Assembly: GCF_007830615.1 (NCBI RefSeq)
Contig: NZ_VLLI01000001.1
Location: forward strand, 62,001 to 126,000
Direction of reading: 5' to 3'
DNA length: 64,000 bases
Source of the DNA: Mucilaginibacter frigoritolerans
GTDB taxonomy: Bacteria; Bacteroidota; Bacteroidia; Sphingobacteriales; Sphingobacteriaceae
Below the pieces are notes generated by a model. It worked only from the letters and a program-made list of their open reading frames with translations, was not told where the DNA came from and ran no database searches. Below, in pieces: positions 50,351 to 63,530 of this stretch (the stretch's first letter is position 1; each line of letters begins with the position of its first letter). The position numbers and the translations under genes were made by a program.

Positions 50351-51151
50351 CTAATCAACCTTAAACCTGAAAGTATACTGGCCTTTTTGATTACCTGTTG
50401 CCTGGGTTGATGAAATGAATTTGGTATTTCGTATAGCATCAATACAACTCTGAACAAGGCTTATATCGGCAGTAGTTTTTCTGGATGCGCTTGCTGATAT
50501 CACATTGCCATTTTGATCAACAATAAAGTCAATAATTACCACTCCGGGTACACGGTGTATATTTTGAGGATCAGGAGCACTTACAAATTTCCAGTTAGGC
50601 ATATTGAGGCCGTTACCTGAACCACCCGGTCCATAGTTATTACTCAAGGTTGATCCGTTAGGACTGCCCTGATTACCGGGTGTACCTGTTGTTCCATCAC
50701 CAGCACCAGTGCCTTTGCTTGAGGGACCGTGATATAGTGCGTTAGCATTTACCACTTCTTTTTTAACCGGTTTAGTTACGGTTGCAGCAACAGTAGTACT
50801 TGTTTTTTTGGAATTAGCAGCTACTTGAGGTGCGTCTTCAGCTTCCTGGGTAACTACTTTTTGGGGACTATTATCAACCTGTGTTTTTTCTTCGGTTGGT
50901 TTGGCATCAGTTACTTTGTCTGGTGGGGTTTGATTGGCTTTTTCTGCTACTGATGGCGCTTCGGTGCTGGTAATATCTTTGCCAGAGCCTGCATCAGTAG
51001 TGCCATAGTTTACCAGTATGCCGCCTGTGCCCATTTCCTGTTCTGGTGGGTTTTGAAAAACAATTAAATAGGCCAAAGCAATCAGCACGGCCAATATGAT
51101 GCCTGTTGCCAAAAATGCTTTTGGATAATTATTTTCTTCCCGGTAGTTCAT
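50351..51151 (-). CDS. TonB family protein (energy transducer)
   Basis: 266 residues. N-terminal membrane helix LATGIILAVLIALAYLIVF, a long periplasmic linker rich in Pro/Lys/Thr/Gly (KVTDAKPTEEKTQVDNSPQK), and a C-terminal TonB-like domain: HRVPGVVIIDFIVDQNGNVI then NTKFISSTQATGN and a final QYTFRFKVD. It couples the proton-motive force at ExbB/ExbD to outer-membrane receptors. The last domain has the TonB pattern but is fused to a rather short linker. 79 bp downstream of exbD. Confidence 0.9.
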   Translation of the reverse strand: MNYREENNYPKAFLATGIILAVLIALAYLIVFQNPPEQEMGTGGILVNYGTTDAGSGKDITSTEAPSVAEKANQTPPDKVTDAKPTEEKTQVDNSPQKVVTQEAEDAPQVAANSKKTSTTVAATVTKPVKKEVVNANALYHGPSSKGTGAGDGTTGTPGNQGSPNGSTLSNNYGPGGSGNGLNMPNWKFVSAPDPQNIHRVPGVVIIDFIVDQNGNVISASASRKTTADISLVQSCIDAIRNTKFISSTQATGNQKGQYTFRFKVD

Positions 51152-51230: not shown

Positions 51231-51629
51231 TTATTTAGGTACCGTTGCCAGCACCAGTTTAATATTCAGTTTTTGGGCTATATCCATTATCTGTACAACA
51301 TCTTGTATAGCCACTGTTTTATCAACGTATAAAATAATGGTTAGCTCTGCAGTTTTGCTTTTATACCCGGTTAAAACAGTTGAAAGATCAGCCAATGCCA
51401 CTGGTTTTTTATCAACCGTGTATTGCAGATCTTTATTAATGGTTACGTTGATAGTTTTTTTGGATATTGATTTTCCGGATTGTGATTTTGGCAATAGCAA
51501 CTTAATCACGTTAGGGTTGGTTAACGTTGATGCAATCAGGAAAAACAGCAACAGGAAAAACATAATGTCGTTCATTGCCGAGGTATGTACTTCGGCCGAC
51601 ACTCCTTTTTTTCTATTTCTTAAATTCAT
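51231..51629 (-). CDS. exbD: ExbD/TolR family proton-channel subunit
   Basis: 132 residues with one membrane helix (MNDIMFFLLLFFLIASTLTN, which contains the conserved Asp required for proton flow) and a periplasmic domain with TINVTINKDLQYTVDKKP. Partner of ExbB in the inner-membrane motor that powers TonB. Start overlaps the exbB end by 4 bp (ATGA). Confidence 0.95.
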   Translation of the reverse strand: MNLRNRKKGVSAEVHTSAMNDIMFFLLLFFLIASTLTNPNVIKLLLPKSQSGKSISKKTINVTINKDLQYTVDKKPVALADLSTVLTGYKSKTAELTIILYVDKTVAIQDVVQIMDIAQKLNIKLVLATVPK

Positions 51630-52339
51630 TTGCTTGGCTCCTCTAACAGGTCAATAAATTCAATAGCATCAGTTTCCAGGTTTAATATTAACCGCTCAAC
51701 CATCATGTTTAAAATGTGATAGCCCACATAAGCAACAATACCAACCGTTAAACCTGCTGCAGAGGTAATCATTTTTACGTAAAGCCCACCTGATATAACG
51801 CCTATGCTAAAGTTATCTGTTTTAGAGATATCAAAAAATATTTTAATAACCCCGATAATAGTTCCTAAGAAACCAAACATGGGTGCAATACCAGCCACAA
51901 TGCCTAATATGCCTATGTTTTTTTCGAGTTTTGAAACTTCCAGTTTGCCTACATTTTCAATAGCGCCTTCAATATCTTTTATAGGACGACCTATTCTCAA
52001 TAATCCTTTTTGCAGCATACGGCCAAGTGGGGTATTGCTGTTACGGCAAATAGCAATGGCCGATTCAAGGTTACCGGTATGAATGCTCGAACGAACCTGG
52101 ATCATTAGGTTTGATTCATTTTTTGAAGCCTTGCGAATAGTAAAATACCGTTCGAAAAATATAACCAATCCTAATACAGCCAGGATACCAATGGGGATCA
52201 TTACCCAACCACCTTTTATAATCAGATCGCCAAAGTGAATTTCCTGATCAGGTGCCTGGGCCATTTGAACGCCGGCATGTTTAGCAGTGTCTATTATTTT
52301 ATTTACTGAATCTGTTGTCTGAAAGAATAATAATGTCAT
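51626..52339 (-). CDS. exbB: MotA/TolQ/ExbB family proton-channel subunit
   Basis: 237 residues with three membrane helices. Hallmarks: an N-terminal periplasmic stretch, span 1 (WVMIPIGILAVLGLVIFFE), cytoplasmic loop including LGRMLQKGLLRIGRPIKDIE, then APMFGFLGTIIGVIKIFFDI and SAAGLTVGIVAYVGYHILNM of the channel region. With ExbD and TonB it forms an energy-transducing complex. Overlaps the preceding HU/SPOR gene by 4 bp. Confidence 0.95.
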   Translation of the reverse strand: MTLLFFQTTDSVNKIIDTAKHAGVQMAQAPDQEIHFGDLIIKGGWVMIPIGILAVLGLVIFFERYFTIRKASKNESNLMIQVRSSIHTGNLESAIAICRNSNTPLGRMLQKGLLRIGRPIKDIEGAIENVGKLEVSKLEKNIGILGIVAGIAPMFGFLGTIIGVIKIFFDISKTDNFSIGVISGGLYVKMITSAAGLTVGIVAYVGYHILNMMVERLILNLETDAIEFIDLLEEPSK

Positions 52340-53385
52340 TGTTGGGCGTTTATTTGTATAATTTCCGAATTCGGGCTAATCATTTTCGCTTTGATCAGAT
52401 AATCTTTTTTTGCTTCTGCTTCATTTTCAGTCGGAAAAGTTCCAACCGAAACCCGGTATAAAGGTCCGGGTATTTCTCCGCGGGGAACTATTTCAGCATT
52501 AACGCCTTTATCCTGGAAGCGCTTTCTCTCATCTGTTGCCAGTTTTTTTAGCCTGTTTTTGTAGGCGATTACTGCCCACTGGATTGTTGGTTTAACTGTA
52601 TCGAGAGGTATAGCCGTTGCTGTAAGGGTTGTAGTGTCTTTTTTAGGTATAGGTTTCTTGATGCTGTCAGCTTTTATTTCGTGCCTGTAAACAGGGACTA
52701 TACTATCTTCTTTTTTATTGATGATTTTATGATAGGTAGCATTTATTTTATCAAATACAGATGGGTAGAACTTATAAACCCCAAACAGGGCTAATGCGAT
52801 AACCGCCAGACTAATTAAAATAATAAGCCAAACGTTTGTGGTTTTTCTTTCCTCTGAATCTTCTTCAAAGTATTGCTGATTTTCCACGGTCTGAATGGGG
52901 TGTTCTGATATTGTAACCGGTGTAGTTACTACAGGCTCGGCATAAACTGATTTTATATCACCACCAGATGGTTTGTTTAACCGGTTGATATCAATAGCAG
53001 GATATCCATAAAAGGATGGATCAGCTGCTACTTTTTCATGTGCTTTAAAAACAAGATTATGGTCATTATCCGTTTGAAAAATGCCCAAATCAGCAAACAG
53101 ATACTTACCTTTTGATGCTTCTTCCTTTAACTTAAGGATAAATTTTTCGGCGAAATATTTGGATGAAGCCAGCGAAATGTTTTTCTTATCAGCGACATAT
53201 TGAACAAAGGTATCATCTTCTTTTTGCTGTGATACGAACCTTATTTTGTGGTGAGGCGGATAAAATTTAGCTTCTCTGTCGTTATAAAATCCACTTACAC
53301 GTTCGCGCACAAAATAGCCCAGACCTGGTACGCTTACCTCATCGTGCTGCCCTAACAATTCGCTCAAATAATCAGCTAAATTCAT
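52336..53385 (-). CDS. HU (CCDC81-like) domain plus SPOR domain protein
   Basis: 349 residues with an unusual order. The N-terminal ~140 residues (LADYLSELLGQHDEVSVPGL, then KGKYLFADLGIFQTDNDHNL) are the CCDC81-like prokaryotic HU domains 1 and 2. A membrane helix follows at ~189-208 (VWLIILISLAVIALALFGVY), then a linker, then a C-terminal SPOR domain (WAVIAYKNRLKKLATDERKR, YRVSVGTFPTENEAEAKKDY) that binds denuded peptidoglycan. The HU part would be cytoplasmic and SPOR periplasmic, so the protein may link the septal wall to the inside. Co-transcribed with exbB. Confidence 0.93.
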   Translation of the reverse strand: MNLADYLSELLGQHDEVSVPGLGYFVRERVSGFYNDREAKFYPPHHKIRFVSQQKEDDTFVQYVADKKNISLASSKYFAEKFILKLKEEASKGKYLFADLGIFQTDNDHNLVFKAHEKVAADPSFYGYPAIDINRLNKPSGGDIKSVYAEPVVTTPVTISEHPIQTVENQQYFEEDSEERKTTNVWLIILISLAVIALALFGVYKFYPSVFDKINATYHKIINKKEDSIVPVYRHEIKADSIKKPIPKKDTTTLTATAIPLDTVKPTIQWAVIAYKNRLKKLATDERKRFQDKGVNAEIVPRGEIPGPLYRVSVGTFPTENEAEAKKDYLIKAKMISPNSEIIQINAQQ

Positions 53386-53423: not shown

Positions 53424-55238
53424 TTAAAAAGTAAACCCAACACCGCCAAATATATTAAACCCGTAATCAGGATAATATAACCACGTTTGATTGGTTCCGT
53501 TTAAAATATTATTAACTTTTACAAAAAGTGAAAATCTGTTATTTATCTTATAGTCAACACCACCACTTACATCAGCAAATGAGTTAATAGTTGTTGGTGT
53601 GGTACTGCCTGCTTTTGAAGGATATGGATCAAGTGCCGAACCACGTATTAACAATGTTCCGCTTATATTAATCTTATCGGTAATATGCAATATGGTTCCG
53701 GCAGTAAGCTTAAACTTAGGCAAGTTCCAGGGTTGTGCAACGGTTGCCATCTGATAGTCCTTAATTTCAACACGGCCAAAAATATCCACGTCTTCTGATG
53801 CTTTGTAATCCAGTTCTCCATTAAATCCATTAACGCGCGATTTGCCATCATCATAAATAACAGTAAAACGGTTATAGCCTTTGGTAAAGTCAAAGTCGCT
53901 GACAAACAGCGGCATATCTTTAATACTATTGCGGAAAACAGATACCTTAAAGCCTAATCCCGGTACTATAGTACCTTTTAATCCGGCGCTGATATCCAAT
54001 TGATCAACCGAGTTCTGGATATTGATGTTTTGTCCTAAAAATGGATTGTAGCTATAAAAGTCGAGTAGTGATGATTTATTTACATCACCCTTGGCTTCAA
54101 CAAAAAGCCGTACATATTTGGGAATCACCTGGAACTCCAGCTTTGCTGCCGGGAATACATGAAAATTTGATGTGCCGCCAAATTGATCAACGATGTTTAT
54201 CCCCGCATCAATTTTATAATTATCGCCCTGAAATTTAATGTAAGGGTTAAGCCTGATAAGGCTGTTATTATAATTATGGAGATATAAACTATCCTGTTGG
54301 GTACTTAAATCGAGCGAGCCGCTTAAACCAACATAAAACTGGTTAATAGTTTCGTTTAAAAATCCTGAAAGAACAATATTGTTTTCCTTAGTTTGATATG
54401 CATCACTAAAAGTATAGGCCTTAATTTTAAGAGCATAAGTAAAATCATTCTCTACATCCTTAAAGTTTTTGGCAAGCTCGCCTTCGGCTCCTAATGTGCT
54501 GAAGTGCTGTTTGTTGATTTGTACAGGGTTTAGCGGGTTGGCTTCATCAATACCGTAAAAATAATTACTGTTATAGTTATAGGTAATACGGCCGCTTAAG
54601 GAGTTTTGAGCTCCTATGCTTTTACCAAAAATGCCAGCTTCTTCTTTAGCCGAATTTTGTTTGTACAATGATCCATCCTGGGCAAAATGTTTCAGATAAC
54701 CGCCAAACTGTAAACCCTGATCCTGGCCATTGTTAAAATAGGCCTCGCCATAAGTGGTTTTTAAATTACCCAGGCCGGCTTTTACATAGTTATTTGTTGG
54801 GATAGAATCGTGCTCTGCTGGCCTTTTCATGGCCTCCAGTTGTTTTATTTCATTATTCTGTTCAAGGCGCTTATCAAGCGGGGTGTAAATCAGGGGAGCT
54901 TTAAAAGGTGTGGTATCTCCCAGATCCGGATTACGGCGAATCTTCACTGCATCTGCCAATACCGGTTTATAAGCAGTAGTTACTACAATTTCTTCCGAAA
55001 GGCTGCTGTTGTCACTTGGTTGGCCACCTTTTTTAATGGTATCAATGGTCACTTTTGCTGCAGCATCACCTAAACTTTTGGCGGCTGTTTTTTGTGTGCT
55101 GGTGATTGCTTTAGCAGGTTTTTTCTTTACTGCCTTTGTGGAATGCTTTTTAGCTTTTTGATTTGTTTGTGCAGATGCAGGAACAATGTACAAAGCTATT
55201 ATTAAGCTAAGCAGCGTATAGATGTATTTGAATTTCAT
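53424..55238 (-). CDS. Outer-membrane beta-barrel protein without plug, TonB-box-like start
   Basis: 604 residues from ATG 55238, with signal peptide (MKFKYIYTLLSLIIALYIVP); a second ATG at 55250 is possible. A basic Lys/Ala stretch precedes SLSEEIVVTTAYKPVLADAV, which resembles a TonB box. The barrel begins near residue 145 (NNYVKAGLGNLKTTYGEAYF) without any visible plug domain, and ends NIFGGVGFTF. It is conserved next to TPR, HU/SPOR and ExbB genes in Bacteroidota. Function unknown, perhaps a porin linked to the TonB motor. Confidence 0.87.
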   Translation of the reverse strand: MKFKYIYTLLSLIIALYIVPASAQTNQKAKKHSTKAVKKKPAKAITSTQKTAAKSLGDAAAKVTIDTIKKGGQPSDNSSLSEEIVVTTAYKPVLADAVKIRRNPDLGDTTPFKAPLIYTPLDKRLEQNNEIKQLEAMKRPAEHDSIPTNNYVKAGLGNLKTTYGEAYFNNGQDQGLQFGGYLKHFAQDGSLYKQNSAKEEAGIFGKSIGAQNSLSGRITYNYNSNYFYGIDEANPLNPVQINKQHFSTLGAEGELAKNFKDVENDFTYALKIKAYTFSDAYQTKENNIVLSGFLNETINQFYVGLSGSLDLSTQQDSLYLHNYNNSLIRLNPYIKFQGDNYKIDAGINIVDQFGGTSNFHVFPAAKLEFQVIPKYVRLFVEAKGDVNKSSLLDFYSYNPFLGQNINIQNSVDQLDISAGLKGTIVPGLGFKVSVFRNSIKDMPLFVSDFDFTKGYNRFTVIYDDGKSRVNGFNGELDYKASEDVDIFGRVEIKDYQMATVAQPWNLPKFKLTAGTILHITDKINISGTLLIRGSALDPYPSKAGSTTPTTINSFADVSGGVDYKINNRFSLFVKVNNILNGTNQTWLYYPDYGFNIFGGVGFTF

Positions 55239-55252
55239 TGCTTGTCTCATTT

Positions 55253-58315: not shown

Positions 58316-58363
58316 AAAATATCAAACTAAGGATTTCGCGAAATTAGGGGAAATGGAATGTGG

Positions 58364-58519
58364 TTCTCCACAATAGTAATTCACATGGTGTGGATAACAT
58401 TTTCTTAACGGTATTAAATTACTACATGTTATTGATGTGGATAACTTTAAGGTTGTTTAAAAAAGAACAAAACACAGGCTCAAAATAAAAACACTTCAAA
58501 TAATATCGCTTTATCAACG
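58364..58519. other. Cluster of DnaA-box-like sequences, candidate origin or DnaA-regulated region
   Basis: Two perfect DnaA boxes in reverse orientation, TGTGGATAA at 58389-58397 and 58436-58444 (47 bp apart), each within the longer GTTATCCACA match. One near match, TTCTCCACA at 58364-58372, is in the other orientation, and one looser match, TTATCAACG, is at 58511-58519. The surrounding 100 bp on the right is A/T-rich, as an unwinding element would be. The cluster sits in the 237-bp divergent intergenic region between the TPR gene and the DUF922-like gene. I cannot compute GC skew, so origin status is a hypothesis. Confidence 0.5.
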
Positions 58520-58552: not shown

Positions 58553-59668
58553 ATGTTTTTTTTAGGAAAGAGGTGGGCGAAATTTGTTTTATTAATAATA
58601 GCTGGTTTATGGGCCGGACTTCAACAAGCTTTGGGTCAAACGCAGGAGATTTTTCTAAAAAATGAACACCTGAATATCAAGGCTGAACAATACTATATCA
58701 AAAAAATAATTGATGAACGTGTTAACCGCACAATGGTTGCCTCATTAGCTGATGTTGGTACGTCTTTAAATAATAAGACTAAAAGTAATACAGCAGATTT
58801 CGCAGGTGGTACTCAGGTAGCTTTACAACAATTTGTTTTGTATAATAATTTAAATGTTAAATCAGGATTTCCATTAATTATCCGGGTGAAAAAATTTAAT
58901 GCAACAGAAACAACAGCTGCTAATGGCAGTATTCAAGGGAAAGTAATACTAATAATGTCATTTGATGTAGATAAGGGTGACGATGAGATCCTTCATCTAA
59001 GTGATTATAATGGGAATGCTGTTTATACAAGAGGGATAGGCCCTGCACAAAATATGGAACCAGCTTTAAGACAGGTATTTGAAAACGGCCTTATTTACAT
59101 TAATAACTGGATGAACCAGTCAATATCAACCAATATTAAACTGGCCCGGGCGGTGAAGGTTATTTTTACTGATTTTAGTGAAAAAGAGGAGGGAGACACC
59201 ATTTATTATAACCCAAAGCGGCCCTTAAGTTGGAACGATTTTCAATCCAGAATACAAAGTAATAAGTTCGATGCCGAAGTGTTTCCAACAATTGGATATG
59301 AAGAGCGGAATGAAGTTATAAAAGGAGTGGTAGTAATTACAATGGCTATGAAGGTGAGCTTACCCAAAAGCGCCAACTGGGTAAAGGAGGGAAGCCGTAA
59401 TAGTTATGCTTTAAATCACGAACAAAGGCACTTTGATATAGCCAAAATTGCGGCACTGCATTTTGAGCAAAGGATAAAGGCCGAAAATTTACCGGTAAAT
59501 AACTATGATGGCTTTATTAATGAGGCTTATCTGGATGCTTACCGCGAAATGAATAATATGCAGAAGAAGTATGATGATGAAACCAGACATGGCTCCGATG
59601 AGTTGGCTCAGGGACAGTGGAATACTTTTATTGATAAAGAGTTGAAGAAGATGATTCTATCCCCATAA
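58553..59668 (+). CDS. Secreted DUF922-like putative zinc protease
   Basis: 371 residues. A signal peptide (FVLLIIAGLWAGLQQALGQT) precedes an N-terminal region of unknown fold. From about residue 218 it reads YYNPKRPLSWNDFQSRIQSN, then SYALNHEQRHFDIAKIAALH, a DUF922-like domain with HEQxHFD, a HExxH-related pattern in which a His-Glu pair and a second His could bind zinc. The protein is probably periplasmic. The start ATG at 58553 gives a charged-hydrophobic N-terminus. Divergent from the large TPR gene across the DnaA-box cluster. Confidence 0.82.
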   Translation: MFFLGKRWAKFVLLIIAGLWAGLQQALGQTQEIFLKNEHLNIKAEQYYIKKIIDERVNRTMVASLADVGTSLNNKTKSNTADFAGGTQVALQQFVLYNNLNVKSGFPLIIRVKKFNATETTAANGSIQGKVILIMSFDVDKGDDEILHLSDYNGNAVYTRGIGPAQNMEPALRQVFENGLIYINNWMNQSISTNIKLARAVKVIFTDFSEKEEGDTIYYNPKRPLSWNDFQSRIQSNKFDAEVFPTIGYEERNEVIKGVVVITMAMKVSLPKSANWVKEGSRNSYALNHEQRHFDIAKIAALHFEQRIKAENLPVNNYDGFINEAYLDAYREMNNMQKKYDDETRHGSDELAQGQWNTFIDKELKKMILSP

Positions 59669-60936: not shown

Positions 60937-62160
60937 TTAGAAAGCTTCACCAAGGGCTATGTTTAGATCAGAATAACCTTTGCTAAAACCATAATCAAAG
61001 CAAATATTGGTATTTGATTTCTTGTTGAATTTAATACGCAGACCGCCGCCACCCGCAGGATTAAGATATTCAAATTTGCGTGTATTGGGTTGACTGGCAG
61101 AATTTACATTTGCAAATAGTACAAAGCCCAGCAAACCATTGTTTGTAATATCCCTCCGGTATTCAGTTTCAAAATAGATCAGGCTTTCGCCGCGATACCT
61201 GCTTTGTTCAATTCCCCGTCCCGAACGCTGATATGGATCCATACCAATTGATGGTAAATTAAGGTATGGCGTACCAGTTGAGAGTGTTGTCCAGTAGTAA
61301 GACCAGAAAGCCAATTGGTTTTTAGGTCCTGCTTCGGTTAAAGAAACATACTTGCGGAAATCAAGATAAAGGGACCGTGAATTGTTATCACTTCCTAAAA
61401 CTTCGGTATTGAACCGATAAATAATATTTCCATAAACACCAGGAATAGGGTTAAGGGAGTTTTGCCTTGTATCGTATAAAAAGTTTAATGACAGGCCCGA
61501 GGTAAATGATTTCTGATTGGTTGTTGTTCCATATACGTAATGGGTAAAGTCAGCTAATGAAACTGGCTGATTGGCAATAGTAGGATTAAAATCGAAGTAA
61601 TAATCCATATTATACCCAATACCTGCATAGAAATAAGAGCTGATGCGTTTAAGTGCACTCTGATAAAAACGCAGATAATCGTAGTTAATCAATACCCTAT
61701 TATTTTCAGGCTGGCCACCGCCAAGCCCCCATGTATTTTGTGGATATACTAAAAATCGGGTATCACCCTGTATATTAAATGTATTATCCTTTAACCAGAT
61801 GCTGGAGTGTATGGGTAAGCCGTACCTGCCCTTAAAATTAAAGTAAGGTGCGAAAGTAACACTGCTTAAATAGGTAGTTTTGCGTGGCCCCAGGTAAAAG
61901 CCGGCAGTTGTAGAAGTAACCAATACATTACTTGCGCCCGGAACAGCTGTTGAAATGGGTAAAACTGAATAATATATTTGTTTTTTTTCCTTATTAGGAT
62001 ATTTGCGGGGCTTAAATTTAAATAACTTTAGGCCGATATCTATTAAGTCCTTCTGACCGGTAGTATCAATATCGGGCGAATTGGTGGTATCAACCGGTAC
62101 TTGTGCTTTTACTAATAAAGGCAACAAACAAATAAGTACTAAAAAAATATATCTGTGCAT
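60937..62160 (-). CDS. BamA/TamA-type outer-membrane barrel protein, second of tandem pair
   Basis: 407 residues with signal peptide (MHRYIFLVLICLLPLLVKAQ). There are no POTRA domains; most of the protein is a BamA/TamA-like barrel: LTSTTAGFYLGPRKTTYLSS-like strands, GYNMDYYFDFNP, and the conserved YQRSGRGIEQSRYRGESLIY followed by FETEYRRDITNNGLLGFVLF, which is near the RGF-type motif of this superfamily. Ends NIALGEAF. It is closely similar to the next gene upstream. Probably an outer-membrane surface antigen of unknown ligand. Confidence 0.9.
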   Translation of the reverse strand: MHRYIFLVLICLLPLLVKAQVPVDTTNSPDIDTTGQKDLIDIGLKLFKFKPRKYPNKEKKQIYYSVLPISTAVPGASNVLVTSTTAGFYLGPRKTTYLSSVTFAPYFNFKGRYGLPIHSSIWLKDNTFNIQGDTRFLVYPQNTWGLGGGQPENNRVLINYDYLRFYQSALKRISSYFYAGIGYNMDYYFDFNPTIANQPVSLADFTHYVYGTTTNQKSFTSGLSLNFLYDTRQNSLNPIPGVYGNIIYRFNTEVLGSDNNSRSLYLDFRKYVSLTEAGPKNQLAFWSYYWTTLSTGTPYLNLPSIGMDPYQRSGRGIEQSRYRGESLIYFETEYRRDITNNGLLGFVLFANVNSASQPNTRKFEYLNPAGGGGLRIKFNKKSNTNICFDYGFSKGYSDLNIALGEAF

Positions 62161-62250
62161 TAATCCTTAAAAGCAATTAAAAAGGAATTTGTTTGAATGG
62201 TACAGAATTACGATTATTTAAACACCTGGAAAATAGATTGTGAATAAGGG

Positions 62251-63471
62251 TTAAAAAGCTTCACCAAGTCCTAAAATTACGGCCGAGTAGTTTTTGCTGA
62301 CTCCATAATCAATACAAATATTGGTGTCTGACTTTTTGTTGAATTTTATACGCAAGCCTGTACCTGCTGCCGGGTTCCAGTATACAAAGCGATTATTTTT
62401 AGGTTGACTGGCGGAGTTAACATTTGCGAATACCACAAAGCCCAATAAACCATTTTCGGTAATATCACGACGATATTCACTTTCAAAGTAAATTAATCTT
62501 TTTCCACGATATCTGTTTTGTTCAATCCCCCGGCCCGAACGCTGGTATGGATCCATACCTATCGCTGGCAGGTTAAGATAAGGTGCTCCTGAATTTAAGG
62601 TTGACCAGTAATAACTCCAAAACGCCAGTATATTTTTGGGCCCTGAGTTGCTAAGAGAAATGTATTTACGAAAATCGGCGAATATAGATTGCCAGTTATT
62701 ATTACTGCCAACTACGTCGGTATTGTACCTGTAAATAAAGTTAACATACGCACCAGGTAAAGGGTTTAATGAGTTTTTGCGGGTATCATAAAGTACGTTA
62801 ACAGTTGGTCCTGATGAAATAAAGTTATGATCATTAAGGGTCCCAAATTTGTAATGGCTAAAATTAATCAATGTATTATTATTCGTTATACTTTCAACAT
62901 CCAGATAATAATCGAGATCATAACCAAGGCCAACAAAAAAATAGGGGGTTATGCGTTTCAACGCACTTTGATAAAAGCGCAAATAATTATAGCTAACCAA
63001 AAGCTTATAACTTTCGGGCTGGCCACCTCCCAGGCTCCAGGTATATTGCGGATAAACCAGGATACGGGTATCTCCCTGTATATTCCAGCTATTGTTATTT
63101 AACCAGAAACTTGATCGGATAGGTAGGCCATATCGCCCCTTTAAATTAAAATAAGGAGCGAAAGTAATGGTAGAGAGATAGGTTGTTTTTCTGTTGCCCA
63201 GGTAAAAACCTGCAGTAGTAGAGGTAACCAGTGCGTTTCCGCCCCCTGGTATAGATGTAGAAAGTGGTAAAAAGGAAAAGTAAATAGTCTTTTTATCATC
63301 CAGCGAAACCGGGCGTGGGGGTGATTTAACGAAGGAACGGGCAATATCTATCAAATCCTTTTTGCCAGTAGTATCAAAGTTCATGTGGGTTTTATCAATA
63401 GGGCTTTGGGCCATTATTGCATACGGAACTAAACAACCTGTAAGCATTAATAAAACCTTTCCTATTTGCAT
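62251..63471 (-). CDS. BamA/TamA-type outer-membrane barrel protein, first of tandem pair
   Basis: 406 residues from ATG 63471 (TTG three codons upstream is less likely), signal peptide MQIGKVLLMLTGCLVPYAIM. Same structure as the 60937 protein, which starts 90 bp after this stop: NALVTSTTAGFYLGNRKTTY, PYQRSGRGIEQNRYRGKRLI, LGFVVFANVNSASQPKNNRF. The two share long nearly identical blocks, suggesting a local duplication. Lack of POTRA domains separates them from true BamA. Confidence 0.9.
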   Translation of the reverse strand: MQIGKVLLMLTGCLVPYAIMAQSPIDKTHMNFDTTGKKDLIDIARSFVKSPPRPVSLDDKKTIYFSFLPLSTSIPGGGNALVTSTTAGFYLGNRKTTYLSTITFAPYFNLKGRYGLPIRSSFWLNNNSWNIQGDTRILVYPQYTWSLGGGQPESYKLLVSYNYLRFYQSALKRITPYFFVGLGYDLDYYLDVESITNNNTLINFSHYKFGTLNDHNFISSGPTVNVLYDTRKNSLNPLPGAYVNFIYRYNTDVVGSNNNWQSIFADFRKYISLSNSGPKNILAFWSYYWSTLNSGAPYLNLPAIGMDPYQRSGRGIEQNRYRGKRLIYFESEYRRDITENGLLGFVVFANVNSASQPKNNRFVYWNPAAGTGLRIKFNKKSDTNICIDYGVSKNYSAVILGLGEAF

Positions 63472-63530
63472 CCAAAACAAAAATTAAGTTTAGCCAAATT
63501 ATTTAAAAAAAACATAAAACCCCCATTTTA

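Follow-up and report, generated by a model that had tools for sequence, protein, structure and literature searches.

A conserved cluster of DnaA-type boxes in front of a TPR/outer-membrane operon of Mucilaginibacter frigoritolerans: a candidate DnaA operator rather than an origin of replication

Several bacterial promoters are regulated by DnaA, among them those of ftsZ, mipZ and gcrA in Caulobacter, of ftsL in B. subtilis and of dnaA and mioC in E. coli (PMC8203912). A DnaA effect on ftsZ has been reported for Caulobacter, as has binding of DnaA to the B. subtilis ftsL promoter; three boxes upstream of E. coli ftsZ are described in the same source as playing no part in its transcription (PMC8203912), and thus boxes should be read as a sign of function only with caution. 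As to the arrangement of boxes, E. coli DnaA prefers two that are 2–3 bp apart, and these have been modelled in tandem (PMC11317965). We found no report of a link between DnaA and ftsZ in Bacteroidetes, nor of the oriC of Mucilaginibacter, in the open literature, subscription literature being outside the scope; the open papers that mention DnaA, Pedobacter and oriC together are, judged by titles and the first lines of abstracts, on other subjects, and PMC12371093 mentions neither ftsZ nor Bacteroidetes.

The locus described here lies in a stretch of 64,000 nucleotides from M. frigoritolerans (C1:62001-126000 of a 5.66 Mb genome in 32 contigs), hereafter the window. A sequence-only reading had noted a cluster of DnaA boxes at 58364-58519 in a divergent intergenic region and had proposed it as a candidate oriC or DnaA switch. 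The boxes, two perfect copies of TTATCCACA, the 8/9 TTCTCCACA and the 7/9 TTATCAACG, are exactly where they had been placed, and the setting is divergent as described, with the TPR operon on the left (minus strand) and the DUF922 gene on the right (plus strand; Table 1). The strong enrichment claimed for the close pair holds; the 9-mer as such shows none. The two perfect boxes, 47 bp apart, are the sole pair closer than 5 kb in the genome, the next closest being about 5 kb apart, and by our estimate 69 randomly placed sites would give about 0.04 such close pairs per genome. On the other side, perfect TTATCCACA occurs four times in the window and 69 times genome-wide, equal to the 69 copies of a backward-read control, and the 29 one-mismatch boxes in the window (21 expected) are reached in 5 of 100 shuffles. 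A stronger argument for the reality of the cluster than these pair statistics is its conservation.

Table 1. Boxes, conserved motifs and genes at the locus (window positions; scores are those of the origin-trained matrix)
Feature	Position	Strand	Remarks
TonB C-terminal-type protein	50351..51151	-	28.0 bits, cut-off 27.1; no Pfam match
ExbD/TolR family protein	51231..51629	-	
MotA/TolQ/ExbB family protein	51626..52339	-	
HU-CCDC81 protein	52336..53385	-	C-terminal SPOR sub-threshold, 19.0 bits, cut-off 21
608 aa protein	53424..55250	-	no family match; outer-membrane barrel predicted from sequence
TPR protein, 1020 aa	55253..58315	-	first gene of presumed operon; YbgF/BamD-type repeats
Presumed -7 element of TPR promoter, TAATTTCG	58339..58346	-	placed by position and conservation
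Box A, TTCTCCACA (8/9)	58364..58372	+	conserved TGT(G/T)(G/A)A in alignment A2; score 7.6
Box B', TAATTCACA	58377..58385	+	inverted partner of box B, 3 bp away; score 9.0
Box B, TTATCCACA (perfect)	58389..58397	-	score 12.6
Conserved CGTTAAG	58404..58410	-	part of second conserved half (ATACCA, ~14-17 bases, CGTT)
Conserved ATAACAT	58426..58432	-	ATACCAT in most aligned rows
Box C, TTATCCACA (perfect)	58436..58444	-	score 13.2; TTTTCCACA in most Mucilaginibacter
Weaker matrix site, TTTTTAAACAA	58453..58463	-	score 9.4
7/9 box, TTATCAACG	58511..58519	+	outside conserved block; score 9.1
DUF922 gene, divergent neighbour	58553..59668	+	

The boxes are part of a conserved element of about 75 bp that fronts the divergent TPR/outer-membrane operon, whose core is made up of a box with an inverted partner 2–3 bp off, followed by one more box where the -33 region is presumed to lie. 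Toward the TPR gene the order is as follows: box C (TTTTCCACA), ATACCAT, about 14–17 bases, CGTT, box B, 2–3 bases, B' (TGTTAATT), CT, two bases, box A (TGT(G/T)(G/A)A), the presumed -7 element and the ATG. In alignment A2 the conserved form of box B' is TGTNAATT, and box B reads TTNT(C/T)(C/A)ACA in 31 of 31 rows, which is partly built in by the selection pattern. By eye, the box at 58511 has no conserved counterpart among the alignment rows listed. Conservation in sister genomes, to which the sequence-only reading had pointed as a check, has been borne out. Among 80 named loci, mostly from Mucilaginibacter, also from Pontibacter and a few others, with each box allowed at most one mismatch, a same-strand pair 43–54 bp apart is present at 44 of the 57 loci where an open frame of 840 aa or more runs divergently and at none of the 23 lacking such a frame, and the B–C spacing is 48–50 bp in 35 of 45 cases. 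A search of the genus with the pair pattern matched 31 of 61 genomes, once each, against 11 matches for a backward control; one of the 31 (G002) is the nadA-nadB spacer. Among 20 TPR promoters of other genera, box C at the usual spacing is found only in genus g26, and a pattern search picked up the ATA(A/C)CA...CGTT half in nine.

A model of the element, R1, built of sequence only from 31 rows, has one strong match in the genome of the window, which is the site itself (E 1.2e-12; next best 0.034). At E ≤0.01, counted at any location, 109 of 151 family genomes are matched. Among the matches listed, 57 of the 64 comparable genomes, that is, those with R1 matches listed and the TPR gene placed, have one no more than 400 bp upstream of the TPR gene, a count that takes in matches at E <1e-9 plus weaker ones of genus g18 (to E 0.009). 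The remaining seven (G083, G096, G110, G111, G121, G133 and G149) have no listed match there, and six of 29 usable Mucilaginibacter TPR promoters show, by eye, no clear boxes with ATACCAT and CGTT kept; both exceptions to the conservation of the boxes across species at this promoter speak against the reading as a DnaA operator. The ATACCAT-N-CGTT half (58404-58432 in the window) persists even in promoters that have lost the boxes. A second promoter or the site of another factor may be what it represents, and ATACCA-N-CGTT might conceivably be read as an ECF-sigma site. Secondary R1 matches, mostly to the B-B'-A part, occur in seven Mucilaginibacter genomes at neither ftsZ nor mraZ (G043:C12:171578, G020:C18:19822, G042:C12:46994, G052:C12:184813, G102:C3:799421, G093:C3:305340 and G086:C9:76834). 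An RNA element at the site was also considered and rejected, Rfam giving a single chance-level match (E 0.69).

The gene behind the element encodes a TPR protein that matches TIGR02795 with 176.8 bits (cut-off 90.1). In the genome of the window the operon is extended by HU/SPOR-like, ExbB/TolQ, ExbD/TolR and TonB-like genes, and the genes from TPR to TonB presumably form one operon; a Mur-ligase-type protein, which we name FolC-like, follows. In G128, a genome of another genus, only the TPR and barrel proteins stand behind the element, and therefore the Tol/Ton part is not family-wide. The operon may have a role in division or envelope constriction. The DUF922 gene, which had been named as an alternative target of DnaA, is an unlikely one, because the element fronts the TPR gene also where DUF922 does not adjoin it, as in G128, where the neighbour upstream of the element looks by eye like aspartate carbamoyltransferase, and in G023, where no DUF922 relative was found. 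Most of the named relatives of the DUF922 protein come from Mucilaginibacter (best identity 61%). Further on, the window contains two adjoining and clearly similar outer-membrane-type proteins of 407 and 409 aa (60937-63480), apparently a tandem duplication.

With what should the boxes be compared? The nadA-nadB spacer (in the genome of the window C2:328161-329560; L184, L198, L199) is likely the oriC of the genus. In G013, a single contig, the TPR/DUF922 locus (4.27 Mb) has negative GC skew to its left and right; the change to positive skew comes at about 6.325 Mb, nadA being at 6,326,237 (40 stretches sampled, the one outlier being at 4.94 Mb). The turn in G002 lies between 1.75 and 2.5 Mb, noisily (17 stretches), with nadA at 2.225 Mb and four perfect boxes alongside it in 445 bp; the TPR locus of G128 is away from the skew turn (20 stretches). 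On contig C2 of M. frigoritolerans the cumulative minimum is at about 317–329 kb (396 kb sampled) and nadA at 328.2 kb. The cumulative skew of C1 changes little between 60 and 120 kb and climbs to either side of this interval. An alignment of 19 genomes shows a spacer of about 400 bp with an A/T-rich block by nadA and the conserved motifs TGTTAATAA, TGTTAATTT, GTGGATAAC and TATTAACA. TTNTNMACA is more frequent there than in shuffles in most of 49 genomes (4 versus 0.8 in M. frigoritolerans), the excess being absent in G156 (0 versus 0.4) and barely present in G087 (1 versus 0.7). By box score the nadA-nadB spacer ranks first in G013 and G002; in the genome of the window it is outscored by the TPR promoter.

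An 11-column matrix was trained on 49 nadA upstream regions with no TPR sequence among them, using a second-order background and, as seeds, DnaA-box forms, a choice that counts against the DnaA reading. Box clusters were then ranked at thresholds of 5, 6 and 7 in 842 kb of the M. frigoritolerans genome. First place goes to the TPR promoter at all three (1, 1, 1), the ftsA-ftsZ spacer ranks 4, 2, 2 and the nadA-nadB spacer itself 3, 3, 5. With column-permuted matrices, TPR enters the top 10 in 0 of 120 cases and ftsZ in 2 of 120; a backward matrix places TPR outside the top 600 and ftsZ at 140, and a control matrix trained on nadB coding DNA places TPR at 433 and ftsZ beyond 600. Retraining with two seeds each gave TPR ranks 1 and 2 and ftsZ ranks 2 and 31 from all 49 regions, TPR 1 and 1 and ftsZ 25 and 22 from 20 origins of other genera, and TPR 2 and 35 and ftsZ 1 and 137 from 28 Mucilaginibacter origins excluding that of M. 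frigoritolerans. The fall to 35 and 137, obtained with seed TTATTAACA, and that of ftsZ to 22–31 in three other trainings are points against DnaA. Elsewhere the TPR promoter ranks 2, 2, 1 in G128 (400 kb) and 70, 28, 56 in G013 (765 kb), and in G002 (265 kb) its boxes are not recognisable, the latter two results again unfavourable to DnaA; the second-ranked cluster of G002, about 2 kb beyond DUF922 and upstream of a response-regulator gene (L155:11799-11960), is possibly a moved site. Overall, the boxes resemble the family's own origin boxes above chance, more weakly in G013 and with one training set. The DnaA protein of M. frigoritolerans carries GRDHSTV, close to the usual signature GRDHTTV. 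Other top clusters are inside reading frames (C2:445033, C1:97036, C1:420653, C1:200646, C1:397566 and C2:391343) or, in the case of C1:8152, overlap a frame of 118 aa. An inverted GTTATCTACAGGTTAAATTTGTAGATAAC-type cluster at C1:247897 (L041:1897), third in one matrix ranking, stands between frames without a clear target.

A similar module is found near ftsZ. By eye, the ftsA-ftsZ spacer of the genome of the window (C1:53482-53559; L033:13482-13559) contains five box-like sites in about 80 bp; the products of the two flanking genes were identified as FtsA and FtsZ. In relatives, where the module is known from the positions of R1 matches, 30 of 59 genomes (nine genera) have such a match 45–149 bp in front of ftsZ, in all 30 cases antiparallel to the gene. 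The 59 genomes had mostly been picked for R1 matches away from TPR, whatever their location, and by our estimate almost none would be expected at such a position by chance. Directly upstream of mraZ, a conceivable further target at the start of the division/cell-wall cluster, there is a weaker box group (C1:39139-39213; L032:19139-19213) with an R1 E-value of 0.19 in this genome and a matrix rank of 21–164 depending on the training set, and of 6 with the coding-DNA control.

We consider it somewhat more probable than the contrary that the site is a DnaA-bound operator of the TPR operon, belonging to a regulon shared with ftsZ. Control of the TPR/TonB operon by DnaA had been offered as an alternative to oriC, and conservation and the origin-trained matrix now support it without proving it. 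The -7 form of Bacteroidota is TAnnTTTG, and with the presumed -7 element of the TPR promoter at 58339-58346, box A falls where the -33 would lie. Measured upstream from box A, the start of B' is 5 bp away and the end of B 25 bp away; C begins 39 bp past B. An outline of the putative mechanism is as follows: box B, the inverted B' and box A, plus C in Mucilaginibacter, would serve as DnaA boxes, to which DnaA, probably as an oligomer, would bind, on the -33 region and immediately upstream of it. Bound DnaA, which could block RNA polymerase or contact it, would then alter transcription of the TPR gene with the DnaA cycle. Repression is our guess for the sign of the effect, in view of the overlap with the -33. 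Given the similar antiparallel module upstream of ftsZ, one factor would govern the initiation of replication, ftsZ and a cell-envelope operon, which hints at wiring between replication and cell-envelope genes. A family-wide version, in which DnaA directly controls both ftsZ and the TPR/outer-membrane operon via the conserved inverted-box module and initiation of replication would time the division ring plus envelope remodelling, is put forward only tentatively, as we think it may well not hold.

The main rival is control of ftsZ and the TPR operon by some other transcription factor whose site (TTNTNMACA / TGTTAAT) is DnaA-like, in which case A/T-rich sites would have converged on a likeness to origin boxes; we regard this as unlikely, if still worth weighing seriously. 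The classical DnaA box is TTATNCACA, and base 6 of box B is A, outside this form, in 13 of 31 rows; against this, TTNTTAACA, which has A at this place, is common at origins. Judged by eye, covariation of base 6 between origin and TPR boxes is not convincing. Further points for another factor are that the close pair is inverted, that few origins (4 of 49 genomes, with one copy each) have TTNTCAACA, the box-B form of many other-genus TPR promoters, and that no counterpart of ATACCA...CGTT was seen by eye in the origin alignment. R1 also scores origins weakly, which again counts against DnaA: over 49 nadA loci it gave 12 matches at E ≤10, seven of which, in four genomes, are inside the nadA-nadB spacer (best E 0.023; coordinates read by eye); the best overall (E 0.0041, L186) is outside it. 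The rival has, however, to account for the first rank that the origin-trained matrix, unlike its permuted, backward and coding-trained counterparts, gives to the TPR promoter in 842 kb. An intergenic site of DnaA titration or reactivation, datA- or DARS-like and without transcription control, would fit the single strong R1 match in the genome and the top-scoring box cluster of the 842 kb scanned, but appears improbable in view of its constant place at the TPR promoter (57 of 64 genomes, among the matches listed) and of the likewise constant place of a similar module near ftsZ (30 of 59). That the site is itself oriC, as first suggested by the box cluster and its A/T-rich flank, has next to no chance, because cumulative GC skew rises through it (446 kb of C1) without a minimum, the locus is off the skew turn in G013, G002 and G128, and in the sampled parts of M. 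frigoritolerans and G013 and, more coarsely, in G002, the turn sits instead at the conserved, box-rich and A/T-rich nadA-nadB spacer, the better candidate.

If the site is indeed a DnaA operator, the coupling between replication and division in Bacteroidota can be tested directly at a compact set of sites (nadA-nadB, ftsZ and the TPR operon), and an uncharacterised TPR/outer-membrane operon gains a likely link to the cell cycle.

Compared with the probable oriC at nadA-nadB, the TPR site shares an overlapping set of box forms, but it is off the skew turn, shorter and at a promoter. It is like the DnaA-regulated promoters as described in PMC8203912 in having DnaA-type boxes in the promoter region and a cell-division gene among its presumed targets, and differs from them in that DnaA control is here deduced from DNA sequence, that the targets would be a TPR/outer-membrane operon plus ftsZ, and that the close pair is inverted. 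With the double DnaA box of E. coli, as presented in PMC11317965, it has in common two boxes 2–3 bp apart; the orientation separates them, as the E. coli boxes are modelled in tandem, whereas the pair at the TPR promoter is inverted, with a third box next to it.
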